A stretch of 64,000 bases of DNA, taken from positions 1 through 64,000 of the forward strand of contig JAQGMF010000003.1 of NCBI GenBank assembly GCA_028292505.1, in the 5' to 3' direction. The translations under genes and the position numbers were made by a program. The DNA is from Rhodocyclales bacterium. Lineage in GTDB: Bacteria > Pseudomonadota > Gammaproteobacteria > Burkholderiales > Rhodocyclaceae. This document shows positions 6,156 to 51,854 of the stretch, piece after piece; positions within the stretch are counted from its first letter, which is position 1; every line of letters begins with the position of its first letter. A model generated the notes under the pieces. It was not told the DNA's origin. It did not search any database and saw only the letters and a list, made by a program, of their open reading frames with translations.

Positions 6156-6178
6156 CCGGGCGATCTTTGCCCGCTTCT

Positions 6179-6219
6179 CCCGCAGCCCTTTGAATTTGAG
6201 GGGCTGCGGGGGTTTTTTA
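6179..6219 (+). terminator. Rho-independent terminator of the alginate lyase gene
   Basis: A perfect 10-bp stem CCCGCAGCCC/GGGCTGCGGG (6179-6188 and 6201-6210) with a 12-nt loop is followed by GGTTTTTT, 24 bp after the lyase stop codon. It may also serve the convergent HDOD gene, although the T tract faces the plus strand. Confidence 0.85.
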
Positions 6220-6257
6220 TTTGTGCGGCTTGCTGTGCCGTTTCAAACCCGGGCTTC

Positions 6258-7127: not shown

Positions 7128-7418
7128 TTCTCGTTTCTCCGGATTATGCTGACATCATCGCCGCCGATGTGGAACAAGGCGCCTTGGCGACACGATCGGT
7201 AACTCGATGAAGGCTCGGTGCAGATGGAATGCCTGTCAGGGCGTACCTATCAACTCGATAGATTGTTTTCGGCAGCAGCAGCGTGTAACTTCAGTGCCCA
7301 ACGCCGTCCGTTGATCCGGAATGTCCCCGATTCCTCGATTCCTGCGACATCTCGGGGGTTTCATGCCCCGCTATTGGCGCACTTCAAGCTTTGCCAGAAC
7401 CTCTCTGAAAGACTATCG

Positions 7419-37006: not shown

Positions 37007-37082
37007 GGGTCGGTAGCTCAGTCGGTAGAGCAGCGGACTTTTAATCCGTTGGTCGCGAGTTCGAGTCTCGCCCGACCCACCA
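37007..37082 (+). tRNA. tRNA-Lys (anticodon TTT)
   Basis: A complete 76-nt cloverleaf including encoded CCA. The acceptor stem GGGTCGG pairs with CCGACCC, the D-arm contains AGCTCAGTCGGTAGAGC, the anticodon loop CTTTTAA holds TTT at 37040-37042, and the T-arm contains GAGTTCGAGTCTC. It is the first of two lysine tRNAs transcribed from the promoter at 36933. Confidence 0.97.
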
Positions 37083-37159
37083 GTTGCCGTGGGATTTGGC
37101 CCGGCGGCGACAGTAGAAATAAAGTCGCATCAAAGGTAACATCGCGCCTCTCGCGCTTT

Positions 37160-37235
37160 GGGGGTATAGCTCAGTTGGTAGAGCAGCTGACTCTTAATCA
37201 GTAGGTCGTAGGTTCGAATCCTACTGCCCCCACCA
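37160..37235 (+). tRNA. tRNA-Lys (anticodon CTT)
   Basis: A 76-nt cloverleaf with encoded CCA. GGGGGTA pairs with TGCCCCC, the anticodon loop CTCTTAA holds CTT at 37193-37195, and the T-arm GTAGGTTCGAATCCTAC is intact. It is followed by a terminator and, 150 bp on, an integrase pseudogene, so its 3' end is a plausible integration site for the island. Confidence 0.97.
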
Positions 37236-37241
37236 AATATT

Positions 37242-37269
37242 AAGGGCTTAGCCATCCGGCTAGGCCCTT
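37242..37269 (+). terminator. Terminator of the tRNA-Lys operon
   Basis: AAGGGCTTAGCC (37242-37253) pairs with GGCTAGGCCCTT (37258-37269), one G-T pair and a 4-nt loop, followed by TCGTTT. It lies 7 bp after the second tRNA. Confidence 0.8.
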
Positions 37270-37310
37270 TCGTTTCAGGGACTTACTTCTTTACGAGTGT
37301 CCCATCCTGC

Positions 37311-37331
37311 GCTTTTCGCAGATCTGTTAGT
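37311..37331. repeat. Direct repeat, left copy, bracketing the integrase pseudogene segment
   Basis: GCTTTTCGCAGATCTGTTAG plus one T matches 39080-39100 at 19 of 21 positions. The pair brackets the integrase pseudogene and the adjacent hypothetical gene almost exactly. Confidence 0.5.
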
Positions 37332-37388
37332 GGGCCATGTCGACGTTTTGCCACAAATTTGCCACACCGAGTGGCAGAAAGCGTGGCG

Positions 37389-38363
37389 ATGGCAACGATC
37401 CGACAACGAGGAACGCAGCAATGGGAAGCGCAAGTGCGCCGCCGTGGCTTTCCTGTTCAGAACAAGACCTTCACCAGCAAAACCGACGCAGCGACCTGGG
37501 CACGCCAAGTCGAAAGCGAGATGGATCGCGGTGTGTTCGTCAGCCGTGTCGAGGCCGAACGCACGACACTCGGCGAGGCGCTGGAGCGCTATTGGCGCGA
37601 GCATGCCTCACACAAGCGCTGTCCCAAGCGTGGGAGAGGTTTCATTGATCGCTGGCTACACCATCCTTATGCCAAGCGTTTTTTAGCCAGTCTGCGCAGT
37701 GCAGAGTGGCAAGTACCGAGATGACCGACGTGCGGAAAACACGATCCGCATCGAGCTCGCTGTGATCGCTCATCTCTATGAACTTGCTCGCAAGGAATGG
37801 GGCATGGAGAGCTTGCTCAATCCGCTGAATAACATCCGAAAGCCTTCGGGCTCTAAGGAGCGCGACCGGCGACTTCAACCAGCATCAAGACCGAACTGGA
37901 TCGTTGCGGCAACTCATGGGTCAGTCCGATGTTCGATCTGGCGATCGAGACTTCACTTCGTCAAGGGATGTTGTTCAAGCTGCATTGGGACTGGATCAGT
38001 CTGGAAAAAAGAATGATCGCCATCCCACTGGAATATCGAGCCATCGGTAACAAGGGGGTGCCCGCCATCCTGCCATTAAGCACACATGCCGTAGCAGTGT
38101 TAAGCGCATTGCCTCGCTCGATCGATGGCCGGGTCTGCCCGATTACTCAGAATGCGTTGGTGTGTGTGTGGAAACGTGCGATGAAACGCCTTGGCATTGC
38201 CGGACTACATTGGCATGACCTGCGGCATGAGGCCGCATCACGGCTCTTTGAAAAGGGCTTCAACCCTTTCGAGGTGGCCAGCATCACAGGTCACAAATCG
38301 ATGCAGATGCTGAAGCACTACACACACTTGCGCCCAGAAAATCTTTTGGCTCGACTCGGCTGA
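37389..38363 (+). pseudogene. Tyrosine-type site-specific integrase, disrupted by two frameshifts
   Basis: The N-terminal Arm/SAM-like part reads MATIRQRGTQQWEAQVRRRG from 37389 and stops after AEWQVPR near 37724. The sense continues in the +1 frame from about 37700 (KYRDDRRAENTIRIELAVIA, ARKEWGMESLL). It returns to the original frame after about 37875, with the catalytic domain from 37929 (FDLAIETSLRQGMLF, HDLRHEAASRLFEKG, GHKSMQMLKHYTHL) giving the Arg, HxxR and Tyr sites. At least two frameshifts are needed, so it is probably inactive unless they are sequencing errors. Its position beside tRNA-Lys is typical of an island integrase. Confidence 0.88.
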
Positions 38364-38364
38364 A

Positions 38365-39075
38365 TCAAACGGCCGACAGGCTCAGATCCCGGAGAAATTG
38401 GCTACAGCCTGGATCGTCGTTCAGCTTCTCAAGCGCCCGTGCCCGCTTCAGGAAATGTTCGAAGAGCTCAGTTTCGGCCGCGAGAATATACGCTTGCCAT
38501 ACAGGCGCGGGAATGGATTTCCCCTGCCACTTTTTTCTAGTCCATCGCTGCAATACGCGGAACGCGATTTCTTCCTCACGTATTTCGCGAAGCCACGCCA
38601 ACATTTCCTCCGGTCCTTCCACGCCGCCTTCGCGATCTTTCGCAACTGGTACCCACCCTTTTCGCTTGGCGCATTCAATCGCCAACCTGGCCGTTTCAAA
38701 TTTCATGGCTCGCCGTGAGGGTAAGGCAAACCCGTCTTGGAACACGGTTGCGGCCTCCTTGCCATTTACATAAATTTCGGCGCGCGCGACATCCGCGAAT
38801 GCCAGGTACTGCACGACGTATTTACCGGGCTCGACGCCTAATTCCAGACCTTCGCCAAAGACATCGAGTGTCAGTACTTTTCCCTCTGTAGTATCTGCAG
38901 AGCGCTTCAGCCATAGAAACAATGATGCTGTCGTCCATGCGGTGAGTAGGCCTCGTGTTACCCCGAGGCTCTGGCGCATATCAATGCGTCGCAGGATGCG
39001 CTGTTCGAAATCGTCATCTCGTCTTCCGGCAAGTATTTGAGCGATTCGAATTCGGTCTGCTTCGGTTGCTGCCAT
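38365..39075 (-). CDS. Hypothetical protein of the island's left part
   Basis: A 236-residue protein. One hydrophobic stretch (LLTAWTTASLFLWLK, about residues 43-57) could be a membrane segment. The middle has VGKYVVQYLAF-like strand character, and the C-terminal half is helical and charged (EEEIAFRVLQRWTRKKWQGK). No domain is recognised. It is convergent with the integrase pseudogene, 1 bp between stops, and its start lies just inside the direct repeat at 39080. Confidence 0.6.
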   Translation of the reverse strand: MAATEADRIRIAQILAGRRDDDFEQRILRRIDMRQSLGVTRGLLTAWTTASLFLWLKRSADTTEGKVLTLDVFGEGLELGVEPGKYVVQYLAFADVARAEIYVNGKEAATVFQDGFALPSRRAMKFETARLAIECAKRKGWVPVAKDREGGVEGPEEMLAWLREIREEEIAFRVLQRWTRKKWQGKSIPAPVWQAYILAAETELFEHFLKRARALEKLNDDPGCSQFLRDLSLSAV

Positions 39076-39079
39076 CGGT

Positions 39080-39100
39080 GCTTTTCCGAGATCTGTTAGT
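39080..39100. repeat. Direct repeat, right copy
   Basis: GCTTTTCCGAGATCTGTTAG plus one T differs from the left copy (37311-37331) only at two adjacent bases. On the minus strand it is directly upstream of the hypothetical gene start. Confidence 0.5.
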
Positions 39101-40030: not shown

Positions 40031-42937
40031 ATGCATATATCGACTGAAGACTACAAGCTCGCGAGCGGTGACGGCGGTGTCGACCGGGCCTGGTACTTGC
40101 AAAAATATCCAGAGGTTGCGGCGGAGGGTGTTGATCCCGTGGAGCACTATCTGCGCTATGGTCGCAGTGAGGGCCGCGATCCCCGCCTCGACTTCTCCAC
40201 CTCAGGCTATCTAGAGGCGAACAGCGGCGTCGAGGGGAATCCGCTGGTCCATTACCTGAAGCATGGAGGCAAAAAGGTTCCGTCAGCGGATTGGCAGTTC
40301 GCTGAAGACTACAAGCTCGCGAGCGGTGACGGCGGCGTCGACCGGGCTTGGTACCTGCAAAAATATCCGGAGGTCAAGGCGGCAGGTGTCGACCCGGTGG
40401 AGCATTACCTGCGCTATGGCCGCGACGAGCGTCGCGACCCTCGACCTGATTTTTCGACCTCTGGTTACCTCGAAGCGAACAAGGCAATCGTTGGTAACCC
40501 GCTGGTCCATTACCTGCGGCGCGTACGCGAATCTTGTCGCGAAGAATCCGCCGTAACGGAATGGCACCTGTTATGGGAAAAGGGGTACCTCTATCCGAAG
40601 GGTGGGCAGCCGCCATCCGCGAACGCCACGTTCGGTACACCGGATGTTCCAAAAATACTGTTTACCGGACACGAAGCGTCTCGCTCCGGGGCGCCTTTGG
40701 TCCTGCTGAGCTTGATGCAAGCCATGCAGCGCCTGACCGGAGCCGAGTTCTATCTGATCCTCGAGCGTGGCGGCGCCCTGCTCGAGGATTTCTCACAGAT
40801 CGCGCACGTTTTTGTAAATCACAACGGGATGCTCCATCTGTCGAACGGCCATATTCTGGCCAGAATGCTCGGAACGATAGCGAGTCCCGCGCCGGTGCTT
40901 TCCATCTGCAATAGTGCGGATGGCTGGCGCCTCATCAAGGCGCTGCGCGAGGCTGGATTGCCATACATAGTGTCCATCATGCACGAGCGGGGCATCCATT
41001 TCCCGCATGACGTCTGGCGTACGATTCATCAATGCTCGAACCGTGTCATATTCCCCTCAGAGGCAGTGAAATTAGCTGCTACCGCGGTACTGCCCGACTT
41101 TCACGACGCTGCCGTCGTGCCGCAAGGCTTGCTCAATCCGAGATTCGGACAGCGCGACCGCAACACCGCGCGCGTCGAAGTGCGCAACAAACTCGGCCTT
41201 GCGTTGGATACCGCGATCGTGCTCGGCTGCGGCACGCGCGATCTCAGGAAAGGAATCGATCTCTTCGTTCAACTGGCGGCCCGCGTACGCGCGCGCGCAA
41301 CGCGCAACGTGCATTTTCTATGGCTTGGTGCCGAGCAATACGGCGCCTATTTCGAGAGGTTCATCGAGCTGGATATTTCCGAGCTGAACCTCGCTTCGAC
41401 GGTTTCGCTGTTAGGTGAGGTAACCGATCCCGAGCCGTATTTTCTGGCGGCCGATGCATTCGCTCTGACGTCGCGAGATGACCCGTTCCCCTGCGTCATC
41501 CACGAGGCCATGGCCTGCTCCCTTCCCATCGTCGTTTTCGACGGTGCCGGCGGGGCGAAAGAGGCAATCGAAGGGGATTGCGGCATCGTGGTGCCCTATC
41601 TGGATGTGCCGGCGATGACGGATGCGCTCGTCGCCTTCGTCGACTATCCCGCGCGGTTCGCCGATATGGGACAACGCGCGGAAACGCGCGTGCGTTCGAC
41701 CTATCGGTTTCTCGACTATGCCGGACAGATCACGCGCATCTGCGATGAAGTCAGTAGTCAGCTGGGCGAGCCCCGGCGAGTCGAACCCGTGGATACCCAA
41801 TCACCATCCGAAGTCAGCGGAGTTAGGTGCCGAGCGCGCCTAGAAGAAACAAATCCTGCTTTGCATGCAGGTACGGTGCGCCTGCCAAAACTTGCTGGCT
41901 CTATGAATTCCCCAATCAATACCGGCGCGGTAAACGATGCCATTGCAAGCGCTGCAGCATTTCTTAAGCAAAGGCTCCGAACCGGCGAGTACGCCCTGGC
42001 ATGCCGCAATGGTTATGGCGTACCAGTGCTACACCATGGCACAGGACACGTATTCGTCGCCTTTTTTATCAGCGAGGCAACGCTAGGACTCCTCGACGAG
42101 ATTGAGCGAGCTATTATTCTCGTTCGAATTCTTTCCGAAGAATACGACGGAGGATGGGGGTACTCTCGCGCATACGATTTGGCAGATGCGGACGATACCG
42201 CCTTTGTTTTCCGCACCCTGAAACTTCTTGGCGCGGGCCGCACGCCGGAGTGCCTCATGCGCTTCTACCGCGAAGACGAGCGGATTTTTGCTTGGGTCGA
42301 TGTGCCTGGTCCCATCGCATTGACGTTGGAGCGGTCGATGGAGAACAACTTTCAGGCACAGCCAGAAGTAAATGCGAACGTCTTTCTCGCGTTGCGCGGC
42401 ACTCGCTTCGAGGAGTCCATCAACTACGACATCCTGCTGCAATGGCAGCATGATGACGGCCACTTTCCATCATATTTTTATCCAAGCAAACTCCACGCTA
42501 CGCTAATGATGATCGATCTACTCCGCGGAAAATCGGAGTATTCGGCAGCAACGAGACGCGCCCTTTCGTTCATCGCTCAATCACAGAATTCCGATGGTTC
42601 GTGGGGAGCCGATGGTGATCCCTATGAGACGGCGCTGGCAGTTACGGCGCTGGCCGGGCAAGAAGCTTACGAGCCCGTGATGCGCCGAGGAGTTGAACAT
42701 CTCCTTTCAACCATAGCAGCAGATGGGTCCTGGAGCTCCAAAACTGCCATCTGGGAATGGCTTGGGACCGACGGACTCTGGTACGGCTATGACGAAGATC
42801 GAGCCTTCGTCACCGCCTGTTGCCTGACCTCGCTTAGGAGGGCTGCAGGGCATTTTGCAGGGTCTCCCAGTTCAGCGCTATGGAAATGGACGCCTGGTTA
42901 TCAAGTTTTCGCTAATGCCGTGGGGATTCAATCGTAA
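40031..42937 (+). CDS. Three-part protein: tandem repeats, GT4 glycosyltransferase, terpene-cyclase-like toroid with DxDD motif
   Basis: A 968-residue protein. Residues about 6-163 are two near-identical 72-residue repeats (AWYLQKYPEV, HYLRYGR, GYLEAN, NPLVHYL), a module found in front of some proteobacterial glycosyltransferases. Residues about 206-570 are a GT4 domain (PKILFTGHEASRSGAPLVLL, TAIVLGCGTRDLRKGIDLFV, PFPCVIHEAMACSLPIVVFD). Residues about 634-968 look like an alpha/alpha toroid of the prenyltransferase/squalene cyclase class, with DADDTAFVF (Asp719, Asp721, Asp722) and a QW-like motif QNSDGSWGADGDP near 850. DxDD is the catalytic acid of class II terpene cyclases. Start ATG 40031; an upstream TTG is less likely. 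A UbiA gene is convergent with it. Confidence 0.8.
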   Translation: MHISTEDYKLASGDGGVDRAWYLQKYPEVAAEGVDPVEHYLRYGRSEGRDPRLDFSTSGYLEANSGVEGNPLVHYLKHGGKKVPSADWQFAEDYKLASGDGGVDRAWYLQKYPEVKAAGVDPVEHYLRYGRDERRDPRPDFSTSGYLEANKAIVGNPLVHYLRRVRESCREESAVTEWHLLWEKGYLYPKGGQPPSANATFGTPDVPKILFTGHEASRSGAPLVLLSLMQAMQRLTGAEFYLILERGGALLEDFSQIAHVFVNHNGMLHLSNGHILARMLGTIASPAPVLSICNSADGWRLIKALREAGLPYIVSIMHERGIHFPHDVWRTIHQCSNRVIFPSEAVKLAATAVLPDFHDAAVVPQGLLNPRFGQRDRNTARVEVRNKLGLALDTAIVLGCGTRDLRKGIDLFVQLAARVRARATRNVHFLWLGAEQYGAYFERFIELDISELNLASTVSLLGEVTDPEPYFLAADAFALTSRDDPFPCVIHEAMACSLPIVVFDGAGGAKEAIEGDCGIVVPYLDVPAMTDALVAFVDYPARFADMGQRAETRVRSTYRFLDYAGQITRICDEVSSQLGEPRRVEPVDTQSPSEVSGVRCRARLEETNPALHAGTVRLPKLAGSMNSPINTGAVNDAIASAAAFLKQRLRTGEYALACRNGYGVPVLHHGTGHVFVAFFISEATLGLLDEIERAIILVRILSEEYDGGWGYSRAYDLADADDTAFVFRTLKLLGAGRTPECLMRFYREDERIFAWVDVPGPIALTLERSMENNFQAQPEVNANVFLALRGTRFEESINYDILLQWQHDDGHFPSYFYPSKLHATLMMIDLLRGKSEYSAATRRALSFIAQSQNSDGSWGADGDPYETALAVTALAGQEAYEPVMRRGVEHLLSTIAADGSWSSKTAIWEWLGTDGLWYGYDEDRAFVTACCLTSLRRAAGHFAGSPSSALWKWTPGYQVFANAVGIQS
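40046..40518 (+). repeat. Tandem coding repeat, two units 258 bp apart
   Basis: The stretch beginning GAAGACTACAAGCTCGCGAG at 40046 recurs at 40304 with very high nucleotide identity over about 215 bp, an 86-codon period. Third-position identity shows recent duplication or gene conversion. Confidence 0.85.
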
Positions 42938-43168
42938 AGGTCTCAATGATCACGCCGTCGTCTTTCGCGCAAAAAACGATGCGTCTATCGAGTAGCTGCG
43001 GGTCTGTTGGCAGACCGGCTCCTTGACGGCGGCTACCAAGGGATTGGCTTGGACGATCTCAAGCACCAAAGCCGACTTCCCCCGCGCTTTCAAACGCTTG
43101 TTCTCTTCTTCCATCGTCGCGCTCATCGGTGCCCGTTCTTTCAGGGATAACGCCTGAGCAGAAATTCG
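42938..43168. other. Convergent gap between fusion gene and UbiA gene
   Basis: On the minus strand a short frame beginning MSATMEEENKRLKARGKSAL (about 43125 leftwards) resembles the coiled-coil part of an IS3-type OrfA, but too little remains for a firm call. No terminator hairpin with a T tract was seen. Confidence 0.3.
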
Positions 43169-44185
43169 CTAGCCATTGTGGAGCAGAGCTATGCGAATTG
43201 GTTCGTAAACGTTCCATCTGAAAATTATTCCCATCTCGCGTACCAGCTTTGCCATTGCGCCAGGAAATATCAGGATGAATGCAATGATGAGAAATATGGC
43301 AGAACGATCGGAATGCAAAGCCAAGCTCAAAAAAGAGAAAGGAAAATAAATCTGGTAGTATTCCGTCATAATAAAACGCATATTCGGTTTAGGAGTGGCA
43401 ATGACGATATTGCAGCCCCAGCACTTGCGCCTCAGCCACTCAGTGAATGCGTATATTGGTAAAAATATTACAAAAAGGCTGTCGCGGCTCAGGAGCAACA
43501 ACAGAAAGAAGCAAACTATCTCGAAGGGAAATACATACCATTCCCCTATGTGCGCCAGATTAGTTTCCCCAATTAATGCTCCTAGAGTTTTGCAACCGGC
43601 CCTACGATCATTTTCAACCTCCAAAATCTGGTGCCAGATTATCCCTCGCATGCCGAAGGCCGTGGACCAGCCAAGATATGCCAGCAGCCATGGGATCGGC
43701 ACTGATGCCAGAGGCATTCGTGTAGTCTCCAGCACTAGAGATACTGCCAATAGCCCCAAAAGAACATGCTCGCCAAGCGCAATTGCAATCACACCAAGAG
43801 CACCGCGCTCCTTTATCCGGATCGGTGGCACCGAATAAACCATAAATGTCATCCAGTTAGCCACAAGCAGGAGCAGGCTGACTGGATAGCGCTGAAGCAT
43901 CCAAGCGACAACTGCGTTGAGCAGCACCGATCCAGCAACAACAGCGCGTCTGGATGGCAGGCTCAACTCCATCATGGGCGTGGATTTACCTGCCAGCCTG
44001 TCCTGATCAAGATCCGTGAAATCATTGATGACGGAGGCCCATATTCCTGCTGCAGCGCCAGCCAACACCATTAGCCCTGTTGGTAAGATGAGCATGGAGA
44101 AGGGGATGCGACTCATCCAGGCAAAACCAAAAGCAACGGCTAAAGCGAGTGGGATTTTGTAATGCCACCATTGATGAGCTCGCAC
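43169..44185 (-). CDS. UbiA-family prenyltransferase
   Basis: A 338-residue polytopic membrane protein with eight to nine predicted helices. The first Asp-rich motif is NDFTDLDQDRLAGKSTP, and the second is EVENDRRAGCKTLG, with Glu in place of the first Asp. YSVPPIRIKERG lies between them, as in other UbiA members. UbiA enzymes transfer a prenyl chain to an aromatic or phospho-sugar acceptor. The N-terminus RAHQWWHYKIPLALAVA starts at a GTG (44185) and is preceded in frame by LHLAKRFWLLV, so the true start may be slightly upstream. It lies 38 bp after the stop of a toroid-like relic on the same strand. Confidence 0.82.
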   Translation of the reverse strand: MRAHQWWHYKIPLALAVAFGFAWMSRIPFSMLILPTGLMVLAGAAAGIWASVINDFTDLDQDRLAGKSTPMMELSLPSRRAVVAGSVLLNAVVAWMLQRYPVSLLLLVANWMTFMVYSVPPIRIKERGALGVIAIALGEHVLLGLLAVSLVLETTRMPLASVPIPWLLAYLGWSTAFGMRGIIWHQILEVENDRRAGCKTLGALIGETNLAHIGEWYVFPFEIVCFFLLLLLSRDSLFVIFLPIYAFTEWLRRKCWGCNIVIATPKPNMRFIMTEYYQIYFPFSFLSLALHSDRSAIFLIIAFILIFPGAMAKLVREMGIIFRWNVYEPIRIALLHNG

Positions 44186-44223
44186 GAGAAGCCAGAAGCG
44201 TTTTGCTAAGTGTAATATCGTGA

Positions 44224-44466
44224 TTATCCTTGTAAAATTCTGGATGCTCCGGAATCTTTATAATGCGCATCTAGGCCTTCGCCGAAATGACGAGCAAGAA
44301 ACTCCTGCGGCCGTCGACGCGAAAGAGCTTCGACTGCAAACACTGTGGTCAAGGCCTCTGATCCGTACCACGGGCTTCGGTTGAGTTTCCAAGCCCCCTC
44401 CAACCGACCGCCGAAGAATGTCCTTGACGGTGCAACCCAAGGACTTTTACTAAAACGACTTTGGCA
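44224..44466 (-). pseudogene. C-terminal remnant of a possible toroid (prenyltransferase/cyclase-like) protein
   Basis: An 80-codon stretch open in one minus-strand frame, without a start, ends at a TAA (44224-44226). It reads TFFGGRLEGAWKLNRSPWYG and then SEALTTVFAVEALSRRRPQE. The pattern W, WYGSEALTTVFAVEAL resembles toroid-repeat ends and is comparable to LWYGYDEDRAFVTACCLTSL in the fusion protein of this island. A stop codon at 44467-44469 and frame breaks upstream indicate decay. Its place directly before UbiA suggests that a toroid-UbiA operon once existed on this strand. The family assignment is tentative. Confidence 0.4.
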
Positions 44467-44666
44467 CTAAGTCTGGGGGCACCTCGCACTTGGGCCACAT
44501 GGCGAGTAACAAAGTACAAACGAGTTGGGTAATCCGCGCAAAACTGCTGACTGGATATGCACGAATCCGGCGCTCGCAACGTCTGCGTGCTAATTGAAGA
44601 TACTTGCCGCTGGTTCCGCAGGATCGAAAGGCAGGCAGTCGAAACCAAATTCGACTCTAGTAAGCT

Positions 44667-45878
44667 TCATTTCAGCTCCCACCGGTGGGGAATTCGTGCC
44701 ACTCCAACCTCCTTTCCAGCATGTCTAACTGTGAAAGGTGCTGCGCCCTCGCAAGTGTGGTAGACCAAAGGACTGCAGTCATCCATTAACGCCACTGTAA
44801 ATGAATACTGTCCAGATAACAGAGACAGGTGGTCGATAATGAAGGTGATGCCGTAAGAATTGCCGCCAAGAGGATGAAGCCCGGTTGCCATTCCTTCCAT
44901 CTTGGTGCTGATACCATAGCACCAGACTGCATCGTTACGTACGATAAGTAGCCCCACATGGACTCCGTCTCGCCAGGCGGCTTCGTTTAGCTCGGCGACG
45001 ATCCTAAGTTCCAGGCGGTTGCCAGTCTCTATCCCGCCGTTCCGAACATCTCCGCCCAGTGAGAATTCCCGAAGATAGTTATCGGCGGCATGCTTCTGCT
45101 GATCGTGAAGTGTGACTCCTTCAGGCGAAGTAGAAGAATCAGTGAAAGATGCGTCTTTTTCGCGTTCATGATCTTGGTATGCTTTCAGAACGCTTTGGGT
45201 GTCTCCCAGCATTCTGGAATGGCCTCCCTCCATCCATAGCGATCTTTCACAGACCTCTCCCACGGCGAACAAGTCGTGGGAACAGAACACCAGAGCGCAA
45301 CCCGTTTCCCGCAATGCCATGATTCTGCGCATGCACTTGAAGCGGAAATGCTGGTCCCCAACCGACAAGTGCTCGTCGACAATGAGAATGTCCGGATCGA
45401 TGGCGGTGGCGACTGAAAACCCTAAACGCAGGTGCATACCCGAGGAGTAGGTCCGTAACGGCCGTTCAATGAAGTGGCCGAGTTCGGAAAATTCCACGAT
45501 TCGAGGAAGGATATATTCGGTCTCTGCCGGCGACAGCCCAAGGACGGCACAGCCGATCCGAATGTTTTCCAGGCCGGAAAGGTCAGGATGGAATCCGGCG
45601 CCGAGCTGAAGGATGGCGCCGACACGGCCGGACCGATCGACACGGCCGCTGCTGGGCGTCAAAGCCCCGGCGAGCAATTTTAACAGGGTCGATTTGCCGG
45701 CACCATTTTCACCGATGATGCCGATCGAACCGCTGGCAAGGACTTCGAAGCTCACGTCGCGGACCGCCCAAAACGTTTCCGCGTAGCGCCTCCGTAAAAA
45801 CAGCTCCTTTAGACTGTCGATCGGAGCGCGGTAAAGTTGGTATTCCTTGCTCAAGGATTCCGCGCGAATGCTAAACAT
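44667..45878 (-). CDS. wzt: O-antigen/polysaccharide ABC exporter ATPase, Wzt-like, with C-terminal substrate-binding domain
   Basis: A 403-residue cytoplasmic ATPase. The nucleotide-binding domain (about 1-240) has GIIGENGAGKSTLLKLLAGA, signature TYSSGMHLRLGFS and Walker B ILIVDEHLSVGD. The C-terminal domain (about 265-390) is beta-rich (LELRIVAELNEAAWRDGVHV) and corresponds to the Wzt C-terminal module that recognises the modified end of the finished glycan. It is 2 bp after the permease gene. This pairing indicates ABC-dependent export of a completed undecaprenyl-linked polysaccharide. Confidence 0.9.
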   Translation of the reverse strand: MFSIRAESLSKEYQLYRAPIDSLKELFLRRRYAETFWAVRDVSFEVLASGSIGIIGENGAGKSTLLKLLAGALTPSSGRVDRSGRVGAILQLGAGFHPDLSGLENIRIGCAVLGLSPAETEYILPRIVEFSELGHFIERPLRTYSSGMHLRLGFSVATAIDPDILIVDEHLSVGDQHFRFKCMRRIMALRETGCALVFCSHDLFAVGEVCERSLWMEGGHSRMLGDTQSVLKAYQDHEREKDASFTDSSTSPEGVTLHDQQKHAADNYLREFSLGGDVRNGGIETGNRLELRIVAELNEAAWRDGVHVGLLIVRNDAVWCYGISTKMEGMATGLHPLGGNSYGITFIIDHLSLLSGQYSFTVALMDDCSPLVYHTCEGAAPFTVRHAGKEVGVARIPHRWELK

Positions 45879-45880
45879 GT

Positions 45881-46720
45881 CTACAGGAAGTCCTTTGCAC
45901 GCTCAATAGACTTCTTGAAGAACCAAATACCGATTGCGGCCGACGCGAACGCCCAGGCCGCGACGATAATGGGCAATCTCCAATCGACATGCCCATGCAA
46001 AACGATACCGCGGTACAACTCCACCAGATGATGCATAGGGTTGAAAGCCAGGGTCCACGTCAGGGCATTCGGTAACGCAGCGGGGCTGTAGAAGATAGGT
46101 GTTAGAAACATCCAGGCCGTGGTAACGAAACCAAGTACTTCTGCGATGTCGGCGACGAATATGGAAAGAATACTCACCACCCAAACAAAGCCTGCGGTGA
46201 ACAAAATTCGCAGCAGAATGGCTCCCGGCAAGGCAAGGATAAGCCATCCCGCCTGATTTCCATGCAACGCAGCGGCCAAGGAAAGCAATGCCATACCGAT
46301 GACCTCGGCGGCCGACGCACTAAGGATTTTTGCAGCGGCCAACACCTCCCCTGGAAATTGTTCGCGGTCGAGCAGCGAGCGGTCCTCGCGTAGCGAAGTA
46401 CAGGCGCGGTGCAGCCCGTCGGCAAAGGCCTGAAAAGGCAACAAACCGGCCAGCATGTTGAGGGCGAAATTCCATGCTTCAGCCTCGGTCTGTCCAGCAC
46501 GCAATATGAAGCCGAATACGGTCAAATAGATTGCCAACATCGCAAGCGGATGTAATACCGTCCAAAATGAACCGAAAAACGTGTTTGCGTACCGCTTGCG
46601 GATTTCACGACGCGTCAGGGCAAGCAAGGGATACCAGTAACGATGGAGTTCGCTCTTTGCACGAGAGCGGGCGTCGGGCGCCGCAGGGAGACGACTATTT
46701 TTCCGAGGCCAATTGTTCAT
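45881..46720 (-). CDS. wzm: Polysaccharide ABC exporter permease, Wzm-like
   Basis: A 279-residue permease of the ABC-2 type with six membrane helices. LLALTRREIRKRYANTFFGS followed by FWTVLHPLAMLAIYLTVFGF is the family N-terminus, and YSPAALPNALTWTLAFNPMH is the conserved loop before the last helices. The frame is open from 46921, but the start at 46720 (MNNWPRKNSRLPAAP) is preferred because the extension only shadows the upstream gene. It overlaps the GT4 gene end by 26 bp. Confidence 0.9.
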   Translation of the reverse strand: MNNWPRKNSRLPAAPDARSRAKSELHRYWYPLLALTRREIRKRYANTFFGSFWTVLHPLAMLAIYLTVFGFILRAGQTEAEAWNFALNMLAGLLPFQAFADGLHRACTSLREDRSLLDREQFPGEVLAAAKILSASAAEVIGMALLSLAAALHGNQAGWLILALPGAILLRILFTAGFVWVVSILSIFVADIAEVLGFVTTAWMFLTPIFYSPAALPNALTWTLAFNPMHHLVELYRGIVLHGHVDWRLPIIVAAWAFASAAIGIWFFKKSIERAKDFL

Positions 46721-47810
46721 ACAAATCAACGTAAGCTTTCGCCATCTTATCGCCGGTGAAAAACTGATGATATCGCTCTTCGGCACGGCGGCCCATTTCT
46801 GCAGCAAGCTTCGGATTGTCCAAAAGATATTGCAACGCCTGGCGCAATTCGGCAGGGGCATTTGGCGGGACAACGAGGCCGGTTTCGCCGGAAATATTGA
46901 CAAAACTAGTACCGGTACCAATCTCGCTTGAGATCATGGGCCTGCCGTACATGGCCCCCTCCAATAAAGAAACGCCAAATGCCTCCGAACGCAGGTGCGA
47001 GGGAAATACCACCCCATAGCATAAAGTGAGGAGGGCGACTTTATCTTCATTCGAAAGGTGGCCTAAAAAATGTACATTCTGTTTCCCGAAGCCACTTGCT
47101 TGCTTTTTTAATTCCTTTTCGATTGGTCCCGAGCCAACGATGACAACAACGATGTCTGTTCCGCGTATGGCTTCGAGCAATATATGAAGTCCCTTGTAGT
47201 AACGCAGGACGCCAACGAAGAGGAAAAACTTAGCTCCAAATTTAGGGTGCCAATATTTCAGCCTGGCCTCCGTGGCTTTCGGATAGCTTTCCTTGTCCAA
47301 GCCGATTGGAATCACACTAACTTTATCGGGGTATGCTTTTAACACTTCGCTGGTAGAAAGATAGTTTGGCGATGTTGCGACAATGTGGTCGACGCTTGAG
47401 AGAAATTTTCTTTTAAGGGGGCGATAGAGTTGAAGCAAATATTTTTGCCTAATGATGTCTGAGTGATAAGTGACAAGGGTGGCTTTTTTAATTCTTGTCG
47501 CAAAATGTACAAAATCCATAAACGGCCATGGAAAATGGTAATGAATTACATCTGCATTTTTCGCAAGTTCGCTGAAACGCGAAAATGCGGCAATTGAAAA
47601 TCCTGTTGAAGCAATCTGGGCGGTCAGCTTAACCCGATGTGCAAAATAACCTTCAATCTCGATGGTTTTCGGCAGGGGTTTCGATGACAGGTATAGAACC
47701 TCGGCCTTAATCCCTAACTTGCAAGAGCCTTTGGCGATCTCGTTAATAACCTGTTCAGTGCCACCCATTGAGTCCGGAAAAGATGTCTTAAAGAAATGCA
47801 AAACCCGCAT
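46695..47810 (-). CDS. Glycosyltransferase family 4
   Basis: A 371-residue GT-B enzyme: RVLHFFKTSFPDSMGGTEQV at the N-terminus, FFLFVGVLRYYKGLHILLEA at the hinge, and SEAFGVSLLEGAMYGRPMIS in the donor site with the EX7E pattern. Codon and base usage is clearly more A+T-rich than in the flanking core genes. The ATG at 47810 is chosen over an upstream frame start at 47870, which overlaps the previous gene. It is part of the exporter operon. Confidence 0.9.
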   Translation of the reverse strand: MRVLHFFKTSFPDSMGGTEQVINEIAKGSCKLGIKAEVLYLSSKPLPKTIEIEGYFAHRVKLTAQIASTGFSIAAFSRFSELAKNADVIHYHFPWPFMDFVHFATRIKKATLVTYHSDIIRQKYLLQLYRPLKRKFLSSVDHIVATSPNYLSTSEVLKAYPDKVSVIPIGLDKESYPKATEARLKYWHPKFGAKFFLFVGVLRYYKGLHILLEAIRGTDIVVVIVGSGPIEKELKKQASGFGKQNVHFLGHLSNEDKVALLTLCYGVVFPSHLRSEAFGVSLLEGAMYGRPMISSEIGTGTSFVNISGETGLVVPPNAPAELRQALQYLLDNPKLAAEMGRRAEERYHQFFTGDKMAKAYVDLYEQLASEK

Positions 47811-47829
47811 AGACGGTTCAATTCCGAGG

Positions 47830-48570
47830 TTATAATATCGATTTAAACCAAACAGCGTAAGGCTGGGCAAGCCACCATTTTAGCGGCGCATGCCCATAAT
47901 ATCGACGCACAGTGGCTATGGCTTCCCGATAATGATCACGGCGCCGCGTATTGGTTTTTGTGCTGGCGTGTTCACGATTGACCGCAACAAAATCATCGAA
48001 AAAAAGTAACGGACCGATCTGTTTGTAAAGCCGCCACCACAAGTCGTAATCCATGCACATCTGCATCTGTGAATCAACGCCACCAACCGCCTCCCAAGCA
48101 TTTCGTCGAATTAGCGTGCCAGGTTGGGAAATAATACAACGCAATGCGAGACGATGTTCGTCGAATGCTTCAACCCAGGCTGGACGACGACCTTCGGATT
48201 TCTGCCGCATATTCCAGGTTCGACCATAGATGGCAGATGCATCAGGGTTCTTGTCGAGTTCGGAAACCATTTTCAGCAGCCCATTAGGCAGATAAAAATC
48301 GTCACTATTAAGCCAACAAACATAAGGTGCACGCCCATTGGCAATGCCTTCATTGATTGCTGCTGCCTGCCCTTCGTCGGAATAGCTGCGCCATCCCGCG
48401 AGCTTATTCGCCCACTTGTTTATAATGGCAAGTGAATTGTCAGACGATCCAGCATCCAGTACGAATACCTCGACTAGAATTTCTTGCGAAAAAATGGACG
48501 CAAGTGCTTCATTTAGAAATCGCCCTTGGTTGAATGACGGAATGGCAATGGTTATCAAAGGCGATGGCAT
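47830..48570 (-). CDS. Glycosyltransferase family 2
   Basis: A 246-residue GT-A enzyme: ITIAIPSFNQGRFLNEALAS (UDP-sugar region), VLDAGSSDNSL, and VCWLNSDDFYLPNGLL carrying the metal-binding DxD-like acidic pair. The ATG at 48570 leaves a 2-bp gap to the previous stop, and a TTG at 48582 is possible but overlaps. It is A+T-rich like its neighbours. It likely adds a sugar to the exported glycan. Confidence 0.88.
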   Translation of the reverse strand: MPSPLITIAIPSFNQGRFLNEALASIFSQEILVEVFVLDAGSSDNSLAIINKWANKLAGWRSYSDEGQAAAINEGIANGRAPYVCWLNSDDFYLPNGLLKMVSELDKNPDASAIYGRTWNMRQKSEGRRPAWVEAFDEHRLALRCIISQPGTLIRRNAWEAVGGVDSQMQMCMDYDLWWRLYKQIGPLLFFDDFVAVNREHASTKTNTRRRDHYREAIATVRRYYGHAPLKWWLAQPYAVWFKSIL

Positions 48571-48572
48571 AC

Positions 48573-51272
48573 CTATTTGCAATCAGACACCATGCACGAT
48601 GGGATACCAGAGGCTTCAAACTTAAATTTCCCCCTCTGAAAACATTTTCGAATCCGGTAGAAATAGTCGGCCCACAAATGCCGCAGCAAAAATGGAAAGA
48701 GGGCTTTCCTGATTTCGTGGTGGGTTGGGACTCTGCCGAACAGGCGCGCACGTATCAGATCCATTTCCCCATGGCCAATATCGGTTATCACGGCGGAAGT
48801 TTTTTGATATTTATGAATTCGGAATGCACCAAGAAATCTTGGGATATGTGCGAATCTTGCACCGGCCTCCCGGAAACGTATCAGCAAGTCCCAATCCATG
48901 GCGAATTTGAATTTTTCATCTACGCGCCCACCAATTTTTTCCCACACCCGTCGGCGCCAGAACAGTGTCTCCTGTGGAATATAATCAGCCCATGACAGAA
49001 CCTTGGGGTCGTGTCCAGGCAGTATCCATCTGCCTATATTAAAATCATTTTCGTCAATAAGCAGGCGATTGCCATAAACGACATCCACGTCAGGGTGCCG
49101 GTTAAAATATTCGATAACCGCGTGAATGGTTCCCGGCAGAAGAATGTCATCGGAGTTTATCCAGGCCATGACCTCACCAGTACAGCGACTGAATCCTAGG
49201 TTAATTGCATTCGATTGGCCATGGTCCGCCTTTGATTCCCATCCACTAAGTCTATCTTGGTAAGAACGTAGAATGTCGCCAGTTCCATCTTCAGAGCCAC
49301 CATCCTGAACGAAATATTCCAGATTGGGATACTGCTGGCCGAGAACGCTTTCAATGGTGCGTCCAATGTAGTCTCCTTGCCCGAAAGATGGGGTCACGAT
49401 GGAGACCTTGGGCGTTTGGAGCAGCAAGGGCTGCCTACGGTAATGCGTCGGTAAATATATGGAGCGGGGCGGGTGTTGATAAAGATTTCCAAGCCGAGGT
49501 CGCATTCTATCTATAAAAGCATGTTTTATTCGGCTGATTAATCTCTGGCCCCCAAGAAGAACTCGTAATGGGTATCTGAAAACTCTTAAAGCGGTTCGGT
49601 AGGCCGAGATAGCATTGGAAAGCTCTCTGATGATCATTTCTTTTTCTTCAAGTTGCCCTGAGGCAGCTGCTAACTCACGGTTGAATGCCTCAAGCCGCTG
49701 CCGATGCGATTCCAACTGATCAATCACGTTGAGTCTAGCCACACAGGCGTCTTCTGCACGTAGCCAGTGAACTTGTAAGTCTTGTATTACCTGTTGCCTG
49801 GCATCAAGTTCCCGCTGTAGGTTATCGATGCGCTGACTTTGGGCAATGCATATTCTTTCGTCCTTTTGCACACGCGTTTGCAAGGTGCGTACTTCTTCCA
49901 TTAGGCAGTGGATGGTTAATGGCTCTAATAACGCACCAACAGCGGGTCCGGGAGTTCTGATGCAGTGCGCAGGAGACTGATGCTTCGATTGCAGCGAGGC
50001 TTTGGTCAACCTATTTGATTGAATCAGCTCATCGTAGAGCCCTATATGACGAACAGCCTGAAGCAAAGATGAAAATTGTTCGCTCACCATAGCGCGGCCG
50101 CGCTGCCCCATTTCCGTACGTTTTTGTGCATCATCCACAAGGCTAAGCAATGCCTCGGCAAATTTCCGCTCATCTCCTGCCGGTACCAACCGGCCGTTAA
50201 CTTCATCATGAAGGATGTCTGGAATGCCCCCTATCGAGTATGCAACCGTAGGCGTTCCACAACAGAGGGCCTCCAGTAGCATATTGGGCAGGTTGTCTTC
50301 GAGCGATGGAAGAACAAATAAGTCGCTCGCTGCAAACGCTAATGCCATCCGCTCCTCTTGCGGGATCCGACCCAATTGAATTAAAGGAATATCGTTGAAG
50401 GCCTCACCAGCGGGCGGCTCCCCAACCCACAATACACGGGCACCAGCATTGATAAAACGCGGATCCTGAGTGGCTTCGCCAAGCACACGCGCGAGAGACT
50501 CGAAACCTTTGCGCTTTTCCTTTGTTTGATCTGCTCCAAACAAAATATAGGTTCCATCAAGTACCAATCCCAAGGCTGCACGAGCTTCGGTTCGGGAACG
50601 GGGTGCAAAAATATCGACGTCGACGCCGTTGGGGATGTATTCAATGCGAGCTTTGTCGCCTAACATCGCGCTTAACTGGGCCTGTTCGGCGATCCAGTGA
50701 GAGGGCGCTATCACCGTCAGGCAAGTCGCATCGATTAGCTCAATTTGGTCACGCAACGCAGCGGCCGGAAAATCAAAATGGTCGCAACGAAGTTGGGGGC
50801 AGTTAGTGCAGTTGTCCTGGAATTTCGAACACCCCGCCGGGAAATGACAACCGCCGGTTAATGGCCTGAGATCGTGCAATGTCCACACCATGGGCTTGCC
50901 CAGTGCCATCAATCGCTGTATATCAGCGGGCGTCTGCATGGATGCGATCCAGTGCAGATGAATGATATCCGCAGCCTCAATCATTGGATGGCAACAAAGA
51001 TCCGGCCCGGCTAGTGAGATAGAGAAGTATGTATTGCTGATATCGGTTCGATTTTGAGCGGAAAAAACGCGCTGAACGAGATCAATATTCTGGACCAACT
51101 CCGTGTCCGCTACTGGTGACGCGACTAACTCGACTGAGGGATCGAAGGTTCGCTTCTGCTGTACAAGCAGGCGTGAATCCACACCGTGTCGTAGGAGGAA
51201 TTGATGTAATCGATAGCAGGAACGCGCTGCCCCTCCACTTGTATCGCTTGCATTAATATGAACTACATTCAT
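48573..51272 (-). CDS. Bifunctional glycosyltransferase: GT4 domain, coiled coil, GT2 domain
   Basis: An 899-residue cytoplasmic protein. Residues about 1-420 are a GT4 domain (HINASDTSGGAARSCYRLHQ, WTLHDLRPLTGGCHFPAGCS, FVLPSLEDNLPNMLLEALCC). Residues about 445-560 form a heptad-rich coiled coil (LQRELDARQQVIQDLQVHWL). Residues about 625-860 are a GT2 domain (VSIVTPSFGQGDYIGRTIES, WINSDDILLPGTIHAVIEYF). Such two-catalytic-site proteins make disaccharide steps, and the coiled coil may set chain length or bridge domains. It heads the minus-strand exporter operon. Confidence 0.9.
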   Translation of the reverse strand: MNVVHINASDTSGGAARSCYRLHQFLLRHGVDSRLLVQQKRTFDPSVELVASPVADTELVQNIDLVQRVFSAQNRTDISNTYFSISLAGPDLCCHPMIEAADIIHLHWIASMQTPADIQRLMALGKPMVWTLHDLRPLTGGCHFPAGCSKFQDNCTNCPQLRCDHFDFPAAALRDQIELIDATCLTVIAPSHWIAEQAQLSAMLGDKARIEYIPNGVDVDIFAPRSRTEARAALGLVLDGTYILFGADQTKEKRKGFESLARVLGEATQDPRFINAGARVLWVGEPPAGEAFNDIPLIQLGRIPQEERMALAFAASDLFVLPSLEDNLPNMLLEALCCGTPTVAYSIGGIPDILHDEVNGRLVPAGDERKFAEALLSLVDDAQKRTEMGQRGRAMVSEQFSSLLQAVRHIGLYDELIQSNRLTKASLQSKHQSPAHCIRTPGPAVGALLEPLTIHCLMEEVRTLQTRVQKDERICIAQSQRIDNLQRELDARQQVIQDLQVHWLRAEDACVARLNVIDQLESHRQRLEAFNRELAAASGQLEEKEMIIRELSNAISAYRTALRVFRYPLRVLLGGQRLISRIKHAFIDRMRPRLGNLYQHPPRSIYLPTHYRRQPLLLQTPKVSIVTPSFGQGDYIGRTIESVLGQQYPNLEYFVQDGGSEDGTGDILRSYQDRLSGWESKADHGQSNAINLGFSRCTGEVMAWINSDDILLPGTIHAVIEYFNRHPDVDVVYGNRLLIDENDFNIGRWILPGHDPKVLSWADYIPQETLFWRRRVWEKIGGRVDEKFKFAMDWDLLIRFREAGARFAHIPRFLGAFRIHKYQKTSAVITDIGHGEMDLIRARLFGRVPTHHEIRKALFPFLLRHLWADYFYRIRKCFQRGKFKFEASGIPSCMVSDCK

Positions 51273-51544
51273 TCTCCATGCCTCCTGGCAAGCAGAAAAA
51301 ATGCCGTAAGCAAGACTTTGCCCATGAAAAACTTCATGCGCAGCGACTCATAATCCAGATTTTTCGAGGTGTTTTAATTTGTGCTATCAAACGCCGGATC
51401 ACTTGGGCAGAAATACTTAGTGCATCTTATCTGCATTTATGAGTGTCCGTCGCATTTGATATCGAGCGGATCGGCGGCTGGGGTAAGCTGGCCAAAGCAT
51501 GAGAATACGCGAACTGCCTCAGATATGTCCGTTCGAAGTAATGG

Positions 51545-51835
51545 TTAGGTTGCACGATGAAGCACCAAACCGCCTTTGAGTAGAAGCCGCTCGACTCTAG
51601 AAAAGCCAGCACTAGTTAAGGCATCGTATTGCTCTTGGACGGTCATGTACAACTGATCGTTCTTCATTCCACCTTCTTCGAAGAAGTGATCGCAGACTAA
51701 GTACGCGCCACCTGGGACAAGCAACTCTCTGGCTTTAGCATGAAGCTCACCCGCATAGTGCTTGTGACGCAACTTGTGAACCGCCTGATTGGTGACGACG
51801 GCTTCAAACGCTCCGAGACCCTGCGGCCACCCCGG
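51545..51835 (-). pseudogene. C-terminal fragment of a SAM-dependent methyltransferase
   Basis: The frame reads GLGAFEAVVTNQAVHKLRHK, then ELLVPGGAYLVCDHFF, and ends YDALTSAGFSRVERLLLKGG followed by LVLHRAT. This is the last third of a class I methyltransferase. Nothing upstream supplies the SAM-binding glycine motif: the sequence runs directly into the MFS gene end. The join is probably the right edge of the island or a deletion scar. Confidence 0.75.
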
Positions 51836-51854
51836 GCTGCCCGGCGGCCGCCAC

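Follow-up and report, generated by a model that had tools for sequence, protein, structure and literature searches.

The fusion gene and its neighbours

The window is the whole 64,000 nt stretch of contig JAQGMF010000003.1 (Rhodocyclales bacterium) that was analysed. The gene of principal interest (40031..42937, + strand) encodes a protein of 968 aa. Starting at the N terminus the chain forms two tandem repeats, encoded by two direct repeats of 230 nt each that are 79% identical (40044..40531, +), and continues as a GT4 glycosyltransferase with its catalytic domain (Glycos_transf_1) at residues 383–551 (41177..41683, +). It ends as an alpha/alpha toroid like those of class II terpene cyclases, corresponding to their beta domain (residues 625–968; 41903..42934, +). 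The class II catalytic DxDD motif is present within the toroid as DADDTA (residues 719–724, comprising D719, D721 and D722; 42185..42202, +). An earlier, sequence-only reading of this DNA had given the same open reading frame, domain order and motif position, and all are as described; the QW-like repeats that it claimed are seen directly as QNSDGSWG and AADGSW. There is one toroid of ~335 residues, the remainder being GT4 and repeats, and the second (gamma) toroid of SHC/CPS type is absent. The N-terminal half, which is GT4, gives no HAD match. A similar-looking N terminus is visible by eye in a GT4–methyltransferase protein (P0008) at another locus, L022.

Convergent with the fusion gene, as had been claimed, is the gene of a UbiA-family membrane prenyltransferase (338 aa with a GTG start; 43169..44185, −) that scores 54 bits with Pfam UbiA and belongs to a distinct subfamily found at glycan loci. 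The first Asp-rich motif, of the NDxxDxxxD type, is NDFTDLDQD (residues 54–62; 44000..44026, −), in which N54, D55, D58 and D62 are present in all 38 sequences compared. H185 and D193 of the second motif, HQILEVEND (residues 185–193; 43607..43633, −), are equally invariant (38/38). Position 189 is glutamate in the window and aspartate in the other 37 of the 38 (ExxxD versus DxxxD), so the window enzyme could be altered. Its fold is closest to those of archaeal UbiAs, some with prenyl diphosphates in their structures (4od4, Z = 20.5; 4tq3, Z = 19.1), and by profile and fold it is nearer to chlorophyll synthase, DGGGP synthase and archaeal UbiAs than to phosphoribosyltransferases.

On the same strand as the UbiA gene lie those of Wzt, the exporter ATPase with a C-terminal glycan-recognition domain, Wzt_C (44667..45878, −; PF00005 and PF14524), and the exporter permease Wzm (45881..46921, −; PF01061), the ORF of which overlaps the next gene and probably starts too early. 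These are followed by a GT4 glycosyltransferase (46695..47870, −), a GT2 glycosyltransferase (47830..48582, −) and a two-domain GT4–GT2 glycosyltransferase (48573..51272, −). The glycan-export operon of the sequence-only reading is thus borne out by Wzm and Wzt with its Wzt_C domain, but the placing of UbiA apart from it is not. The UbiA gene shares the strand and lies 481 nt downstream of wzt; it is therefore more likely inside the operon than separate, and is probably its last gene.

The toroid as a class II cyclase domain

Sequence and predicted fold place the toroid among the beta domains of class II terpene cyclases, its nearest relatives being the monodomain cyclases (8paj, 8pak and MstE) and drimenol synthase. 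Its match to Pfam SQHop_cyclase_C is borderline (25.7 bits, just short of the 26.1-bit cut-off, E = 7e-6; 26.9 bits with the neighbouring stretches), and is the sole match to this model in the 3.8-Mb assembly (93% complete). A phmmer search with the toroid matches squalene-hopene cyclase (E = 3e-8) and also ent-copalyl diphosphate synthase, while a family profile of 15 members finds drimenol synthase 9mhs as the best of the PDB sequences (6e-18). The predicted fold superimposes with Z = 27.8 on 8paj and 27.2 on 8pak, both monodomain cyclases, and 26.1 on MstE; cyclases span Z = 27.8–20.7, with the toroids of glycan enzymes (GH105, epimerases) at 20.4 or below. Since phmmer, family profile and predicted fold agree, the kinship with cyclases does not depend on the Pfam score.

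When aligned, the DxDD motif falls on DADST of 8pak and on the catalytic motif of drimenol synthase. All 25 toroids compared, five of them near-identical actinobacterial sequences, retain its first and middle aspartates, so that conservation of the motif in homologues is as the cyclase assignment anticipates. The fourth position is D in 21, S in three and T in one. The predicted model is weak at the motif (pLDDT ~56 over toroid residues 91–100).

Recurrence of the UbiA–toroid pair and the methyltransferase swap

Using UbiA alone as bait, 84,980 species genomes were scanned, giving 41 loci of the subfamily in eight phyla (nine counting Melainabacteria). The toroid is found in 22 of the 41 genomes, within the locus flanks in 18; it was not found in the other 19, the 23 loci lacking a toroid in the flanks having been searched genome-wide. 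An ABC exporter is present at 28 loci and was not seen in the flanking DNA of 13, and a recognisable GT4 or GT2 glycosyltransferase is present at 29 of the 41. Twelve of the 28 exporters are of a 600-aa type matched by the Wzt seed at just 24–36 bits; an ABC ATPase at 36 bits also occurs at one of five control loci. These controls are ordinary UbiA matches from Pseudomonadota (58–63 bits, not counted as subfamily members), and Wzm, glycosyltransferase, toroid or methyltransferase was found at none of the five.

In samples taken with the toroid as starting point (threshold 1e-10 in Pseudomonadota and 1e-15 in later samples), nine of ten genomes with an intact toroid have the UbiA subfamily, eight of them at the same locus. 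Leaving out four genomes known from elsewhere (the starting points G000, G500 and G509, and G632, the genome of L054), the count is five of six. The UbiA subfamily was not found in the toroid-bearing genome G956. In G661 the toroid is a broken fragment with an in-frame stop, with no UbiA in 19 kb, and a 49-bit toroid match in the Pseudomonadota sample (G252) was not counted as a member. The co-occurrence of toroid and UbiA in other genomes, the absence of which would have counted against the sequence-only reading, is far above chance and extends across phyla. The flanking DNA of five further toroid loci in Eremiobacterota has no exporter at any of them; a GT2-like gene adjoins the toroid at two, and a sulfotransferase adjoins UbiA at one.

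The toroid was also used as bait by itself, an approach then given up in favour of UbiA. Besides the window itself it gives weak partial matches in two of 101 relatives and eight of 398 genomes of the phylum, and in 72,556 plasmids just eight weak matches, in Streptomyces and Halorussus. Three of the loci in relatives and phylum genomes were read (L013–L015) and by eye resemble ordinary SHC or terpene-synthase loci. A toroid search of phages, and a search of viral contigs with single-protein patterns, gave no match. Iterating the toroid profile over the locus ORFs reached 38 sequences by drawing in TPR proteins, and rows past the first-pass 21 were dropped.

The fusion of a toroid to GT4 is seen in the window genome only. 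Among the toroids read from other genomes the domain is a separate gene, as in Sphingomonas sp. QA11 and Chitinophaga ginsengisoli, or is fused to UbiA or PhyH, and in cyanobacteria PhyH, UbiA and toroid occupy a single chain. In one fusion (L055) the toroid precedes UbiA, judging from coordinates. Genes for FPP/GGPP-type synthases, scoring under the curated cut-offs, are present at L021 and L023. P450s occur at five toroid loci and a WelO5-family halogenase at actinobacterial toroid loci, which fits a terpenoid scaffold. PhyH oxygenases, carbamoyltransferases and sulfotransferases lie near many toroids.

A methyltransferase is present at 12 of the 41 UbiA loci, never together with a toroid. 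It occurs in none of the 22 toroid genomes versus 12 of the 19 others (Fisher 6e-6 with related loci treated as independent), the methyltransferase having been sought in the locus flanks and the toroid genome-wide for the 23 loci with none in the flanks. Over the well-supported branches of the UbiA tree there are at least eight changes of the toroid label and at least seven of the methyltransferase label; with shuffled labels, equally low values arise in 24 of 500 trials for the toroid and in 122 of 500 for the methyltransferase, so both labels are just loosely clustered. The alignment and tree leave out L035, L044, L050, L051 and one control UbiA under threshold. The sister of the window UbiA (support 100/99) is that of L022, where it adjoins a homologous GT4 (140 bits) that ends in a methyltransferase in place of the toroid. 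The best PDB relatives of the replacing methyltransferases, from one member of each of two groups, are MitM-type and sugar O-methyltransferases in one case, aminosugar N,N-dimethyltransferases in the second, and the match to FPP methyltransferase is weak (E = 7e-5). Methylation of the prenyl chain, an idea modelled on SodC/TleD-like enzymes, was accordingly not adopted; the resemblance to sugar methyltransferases makes a sugar, rather than the chain, a possible common target of toroid and methyltransferase.

A proposed module and its relation to known systems

With a probability of about 0.58, the window holds the version that one lineage has of a widespread module, in which UbiA and a single-domain class II cyclase are usually accompanied by glycosyltransferases and an ABC exporter. 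Homology, fold, conserved motifs, linkage of the genes, their fusions and the module swap are observed; we infer the enzymatic activity, the length of the chain, its acceptor, the sequence of steps and the end product. UbiA would move a short prenyl chain, probably C15–C20, from its diphosphate to an acceptor at the inner membrane, one that either belongs to a glycan or glycolipid already or is built into one later. The toroid, as C-terminal domain of the GT4 enzyme, would then cyclise the tethered chain, D721 (the middle aspartate of DADDTA) protonating its far end, by analogy with MstE acting on geranylgeranyl-dihydroxybenzoate. The GT4 half may add or extend a sugar, the fusion serving to hand over the intermediate. 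The remaining glycosyltransferases would complete the glycan for export by Wzm/Wzt, whose terminal group the C-terminal domain of Wzt may recognise; elsewhere the methyltransferase would stand in for the toroid. The suggestion of the sequence-only reading, that a cyclised prenyl group is borne on a glycan or glycolipid, is supported as the best reading, the substrate, product and activity being as proposed here.

The same components might instead make a small secreted (mero)terpenoid glycoside, UbiA prenylating a small acceptor, the toroid cyclising it, GT4 glycosylating and the ABC transporter exporting the product. The oxygenases, halogenase, carbamoyl- and sulfotransferases near many toroids do resemble the tailoring enzymes of specialised metabolism, the products of MstE and AsDMS are small, and the 13 loci with no exporter seen point the same way. 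We nevertheless consider this unlikely for the window, which has four more glycosyltransferase domains in three genes together with Wzm and a Wzt bearing Wzt_C, and in which the ten proteins scanned include neither an oxygenase nor an enzyme that would make an acceptor.

A toroid that is a catalytically dead or non-cyclase relative, merely binding a prenyl or glycan chain and placing it for the glycosyltransferase, would account for DxDS at three loci and DxDT at one, for a Pfam match lying at threshold, and for the sharing of the fold with glycan enzymes. Yet the first and middle aspartates are invariant and cyclases outrank glycan toroids by both fold and sequence; moreover AsDMS works with DxDTT, and the squalene-hopene-cyclase-like protein 8pak has DADST. 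This explanation is improbable. Least probable is a UbiA that acts as a polyprenyl-phosphate phosphoribosyltransferase, supplying the exported glycan with a lipid-linked pentofuranose donor, with the toroid unrelated. UbiA-family enzymes of this kind occur in Wzm/Wzt O-antigen loci (PMC11127046), and the Rv3806c-type structure 8j8j is weakly detected (profile E = 0.0012). Its fold score (Z = 15.1) is however behind those of other UbiAs, no phosphoribosyltransferase is among the 12 NCBIfam models, all under cut-off, that were listed for the UbiA of the window, or among those listed for four relatives, and a terpene cyclase has no role in that pathway.

A broader reading may be offered tentatively, though we lean against it: a wide and so far undescribed class of exported bacterial glycoconjugates would bear a cyclised prenyl (terpenoid) group made in situ by UbiA and cyclase. 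Proton-driven cyclisation and methylation would be interchangeable ways to finish one common intermediate, and the exporter would read the cap. Coupling would then be at its tightest in the window, where a single chain holds both cyclase and glycosyltransferase.

Searches of the open-licence PMC literature on cyclases, UbiA enzymes and glycan loci found no description of the UbiA–toroid pairing. The study of terpene cyclases and that of surface-glycan assembly are kept apart, and the two would be linked by a recurrent pair of UbiA and monodomain cyclase. Its presence mostly in glycan-type loci of eight phyla would point to terpenoid-capped glycans or glycolipids not yet looked for, as far as that literature shows. 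The natural GT4–, UbiA– and PhyH–cyclase fusions provide a means to test the hand-over of a membrane-bound prenyl intermediate, and the toroid/methyltransferase swap a direct genetic route to the identity of the cap.

The nearest known systems each share part of this arrangement. The substrate of MstE (merosterolic acid synthase, PDB 6sbb–6sbg) is supplied by a UbiA enzyme, and MstE is not known to be fused to a glycosyltransferase (the PDB chains have 367 residues). Like the window toroid it is a single toroid with no gamma domain (6sbd, Z = 26.1, 289 residues aligned, RMSD 3.2), but it is ~18% identical and belongs to a small-molecule pathway. It acts on a prenylated acceptor, not free prenyl diphosphate (PMC9401909). 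The squalene-hopene-cyclase-like 8paj and 8pak are likewise single domains and the closest folds, but have ~21–22% identity. UbiA-family polyprenyl-phosphoribose synthases (Wzm/Wzt O-antigen loci, three-component pentofuranose systems) share a UbiA fold in an ABC-exporter glycan locus; they differ in scoring below other UbiAs against the window enzyme, and have no cyclase partner in the passages of PMC11127046 consulted. Drimenol synthases of the HAD-TCbeta type (AsDMS, AstC) resemble the window protein in that a single cyclase beta domain, with an aligned catalytic motif, is placed at the C terminus of another enzyme, but that enzyme is an N-terminal HAD phosphatase where the window has GT4, and the substrate is FPP. 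R380 of AsDMS binds the diphosphate (PMC12365925); with residue numbers matched by hand, it aligns opposite the first aspartate of the DVDxxVNAN stretch of the toroid family profile, a replacement that hints at a different head group.

The fusion gene and its island

The fusion gene (40031–42937, + strand) is an open reading frame of 968 residues. Starting at the N-terminus, two tandem repeats that arose from a 230-nt duplication are followed by a GT4 domain (Glycos_transf_1, residues 383–551; Pfam, E 1e-19) and then by the toroid (residues 625–968), which bears D719-A-D721-D722-T-A. Downstream lies the convergent gene for the UbiA protein (338 aa; 43169–44185, − strand). This shares its strand with the wzt-wzm-GT4-GT2-(GT4-GT2) genes and is 481 nt downstream of wzt, whose product carries a Wzt_C domain at its C-terminus (Pfam). 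The toroid is the sole match to SQHop_cyclase_C in the assembly, and the UbiA protein the sole match to its subfamily profile.

The G+C content is 0.45–0.55 across 42,001–52,000, compared with 0.57–0.65 for much of the window; the exceptions are the GT4-coding segment of the fusion gene (0.58–0.60) and the first 6 kb of the window (0.54–0.56). Upstream are two tRNA-Lys genes and a fragment of an integrase gene, and the glycan locus is likely to be an acquired island. Within 37007–39100 the tRNA-Lys genes (ttt and ctt) are followed by the phage-integrase fragment (37929–38363) and an ORF with no Pfam match (38365–39075), and a 21-nt sequence occurs twice in nearly identical form, at 37311 and at 39080. 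The segment looks like the remnants of an integrative element beside the island.

Fold and motif of the toroid

Searched with phmmer, the window toroid matches squalene-hopene cyclases (SHC; 3e-8) and also ent-copalyl diphosphate synthase (5bp8). A profile built from 15 members of the family (A4) matches drimenol synthase 9mhs in the PDB at 6e-18, and both the monodomain cyclase 8pak and SHC at 2e-13. In this alignment the DxDD lines up with DADST of 8pak and the motif around D333 of the drimenol synthase AsDMS, whose structure was solved as the D333N mutant. The structure predicted for the toroid (mean pLDDT 76, pTM 0.81) is most similar in fold to 8paj (Z 27.8), 8pak (27.2) and MstE (26.1), followed by SHC and SsDMS (both 25.1), 9mhs (22.3) and AsDMS (9m7d, 22.2); for glycan toroids, GH105 among them, Z is at most 20.4. 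Confidence is low at toroid residues 81–94 and 119–151, with a pLDDT of about 56 at residues 91–100, the site of the motif. Class II cyclases of a single beta domain are known, namely MstE (PMC9401909) and the HAD-TCbeta enzymes (PMC9128629, PMC12365925).

The first and middle aspartates of the motif are present in all 25 toroids from distinct genomes (counted without L034, L086 and the partial L052, which repeat L018, L053 and L084). At the fourth position 21 toroids have D, three (Chitinophagaceae) S and one T; five further Eremiobacterota toroids have DSDD. A DxDTT motif is reported to be functional in AsDMS (PMC9128629). R380 of AsDMS is reported to bind the diphosphate (PMC12365925); the residue aligned with it in the family profile is Asp (residue numbers matched by hand), a mild argument that the substrate of the toroid is not a free diphosphate. 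The window toroid, however, lacks the DVD stretch of the family and has QPEVNAN in its place.

UbiA, toroid and exporter across genomes

The fold of the window UbiA matches archaeal UbiA (4od4, Z 20.5; 4tq3, 19.1), DGGGP synthase (16.1) and phosphoribosyltransferase 8j8j (15.1). N54, D55, D58, D62, R123, K125, H185 and D193 are conserved in 38/38 sequences and D189 in 37, the window alone having E. Two UbiA loci contain FPP/GGPP-type prenyl diphosphate synthase genes (L021, 7683–8519; L023, 11086–12054), a hint of the donor chain length.

A five-member UbiA alignment found 41 loci in 84,980 species genomes, in a scan that used two patterns only and so is not exhaustive. The toroid lies within the DNA examined around 18 of them. 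A whole-genome search of 27 loci, four of them known positives, found it in four of the 23 remaining, giving 22/41; these four genomes are actinobacterial by title, save one titled Bifidobacterium. ABC exporters are present at 28 loci, 16 of Wzt type and 12 of a 600-aa type (24–36 bits to the Wzt seed; the 12 cluster together, one Pfam-confirmed as ABC), and GT4/GT2 genes (phmmer seeds) at 29. Five ordinary UbiA loci taken as controls (20 kb) had no Wzm, glycosyltransferase, toroid, PhyH, sulfotransferase or methyltransferase; one has an ABC ATPase that scores 36 bits, on a par with the weak 600-aa class.

By tblastn, UbiA matched four records among 72,556 plasmids. In three the annotated neighbours are glycosyltransferase, sulfotransferase, AMP-binding or ABC-transporter genes; the fourth, from Novosphingobium RL4 (unannotated; ORF reading and script), encodes the toroid as a protein of its own (motif DVDDTA), along with Wzt, Wzm and glycosyltransferases. 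Nostoc C052 has a single PhyH-UbiA-toroid(DLDDT)-TPR chain. The Methylomagnum UbiA locus has its own polyprenyl synthetase, and no toroid was recognised there.

Among 398 Pseudomonadota, only two genomes have a strong toroid match, that of the window and G401, and strong UbiA matches are confined to the same two; the order in G401 is Wzt-Wzm-sulfotransferase-P450-toroid-GT4 / UbiA-epimerase-GT4-GT2. The 319 cyanobacterial-phylum genomes hold two intact toroids, each fused to UbiA, and a broken fragment without UbiA. Six toroids occur in 149 Eremiobacterota-phylum genomes, at 0.1–0.8 kb from UbiA in G953, G961 and G939 and 2.3 kb in G509 (L053); UbiA is on a different contig in G957 and was not found in G956. 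Pooling these toroid-first samples, UbiA is present in nine of 10 intact-toroid genomes, at the same locus in eight, and in 5/6 when the genomes known beforehand (G000, G500, G509 and G632) are left out.

Exchange of modules and the possible product

The toroid is fused to UbiA and PhyH in cyanobacteria, to PhyH in actinobacteria and to GT4 in the window. Its nearest aligned relative (L053, Eremiobacterota; 55% identical) is a separate gene beside GT4 and UbiA genes, so that the window fusion joins genes that are neighbours elsewhere; the two GT4s share a distant likeness only (41 bits). A GT2-like gene adjoins the toroid in G953 and G961. The tree sister of the window UbiA (support 100/99) is that of L022 (Melainabacteria). 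It adjoins a GT4 (P0008, 7312–9921) with a repeat-like N-terminus, homologous to the window GT4 (140 bits), whose C-terminal module is a methyltransferase, not a toroid; no ABC exporter was recognised in the flank. Cupriavidus basilensis OR16 (L042, 9890–16874) carries a close copy of the window exporter operon (Wzt 690, GT4 644, GT2 450 and Wzm 438 bits) with UbiA and a methyltransferase, and a whole-genome search found no toroid.

Overall 22 of the 41 loci have the toroid, 12 a methyltransferase, none both and seven neither, and the UbiA tree forces at least 7–8 switches. The methyltransferases of toroid-less loci form two groups, both nearer to sugar-type than to prenyl enzymes. We read toroid and methyltransferase as putative alternative finishing modules for one kind of intermediate, with a shared target that may be the prenyl group or may be a sugar.

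P450 genes occur at five toroid loci (L023, L025, L040, L049 and L083 of G401; two checked with Pfam), sulfotransferase matches adjoin the toroid in L018, L023, L025, L040 and L049 and lie near it in L083, and the actinobacterial toroid loci have a WelO5-family halogenase and carbamoyltransferases. Judged by gene content, such tailoring would fit a terpenoid scaffold. The actinobacterial toroid-PhyH fusions (L084, 6694–8682; L085, 7740–9704) stand beside the halogenase, with carbamoyltransferase, AsnB and radical SAM genes close by, a candidate cluster for a halogenated terpenoid glycoconjugate. L087 of G252 (4856–8578) encodes a membrane protein that by eye is polytopic and resembles a glycosyltransferase; it ends in another toroid with DADDTA, with no UbiA-subfamily gene within the 10 kb examined; it is a second, unrelated membrane-protein/cyclase fusion. 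In the Pseudomonadota genome G350 (L015, 3170–10073) an apparent copalyl-diphosphate-synthase-type gene with DADDTA lies amid P450-like and prenyl-synthase-like ORFs (by eye), a set that we take to resemble gibberellin-type operons.

On the best reading UbiA would prenylate an acceptor, the toroid would cyclise the tethered prenyl group, the glycosyltransferases would glycosylate and the ABC system would export the product. In Wzm/Wzt systems the Wzt C-terminal domain is reported to read chain-terminal groups (PMC11127046). A small secreted meroterpenoid glycoside as the product of the locus is a serious rival to this prenylation–cyclisation–export scheme.

The pairing of UbiA with a monodomain cyclase is known from meroterpenoid pathways, and in HAD-TCbeta a lone cyclase domain is joined to a different enzyme; the parts and their logic are thus already known. 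As far as searches of the open-licence literature show, what is new is the UbiA-toroid setting in glycan-type loci of many phyla, the enzymes to which the toroid is fused and the exchange of toroid and methyltransferase.
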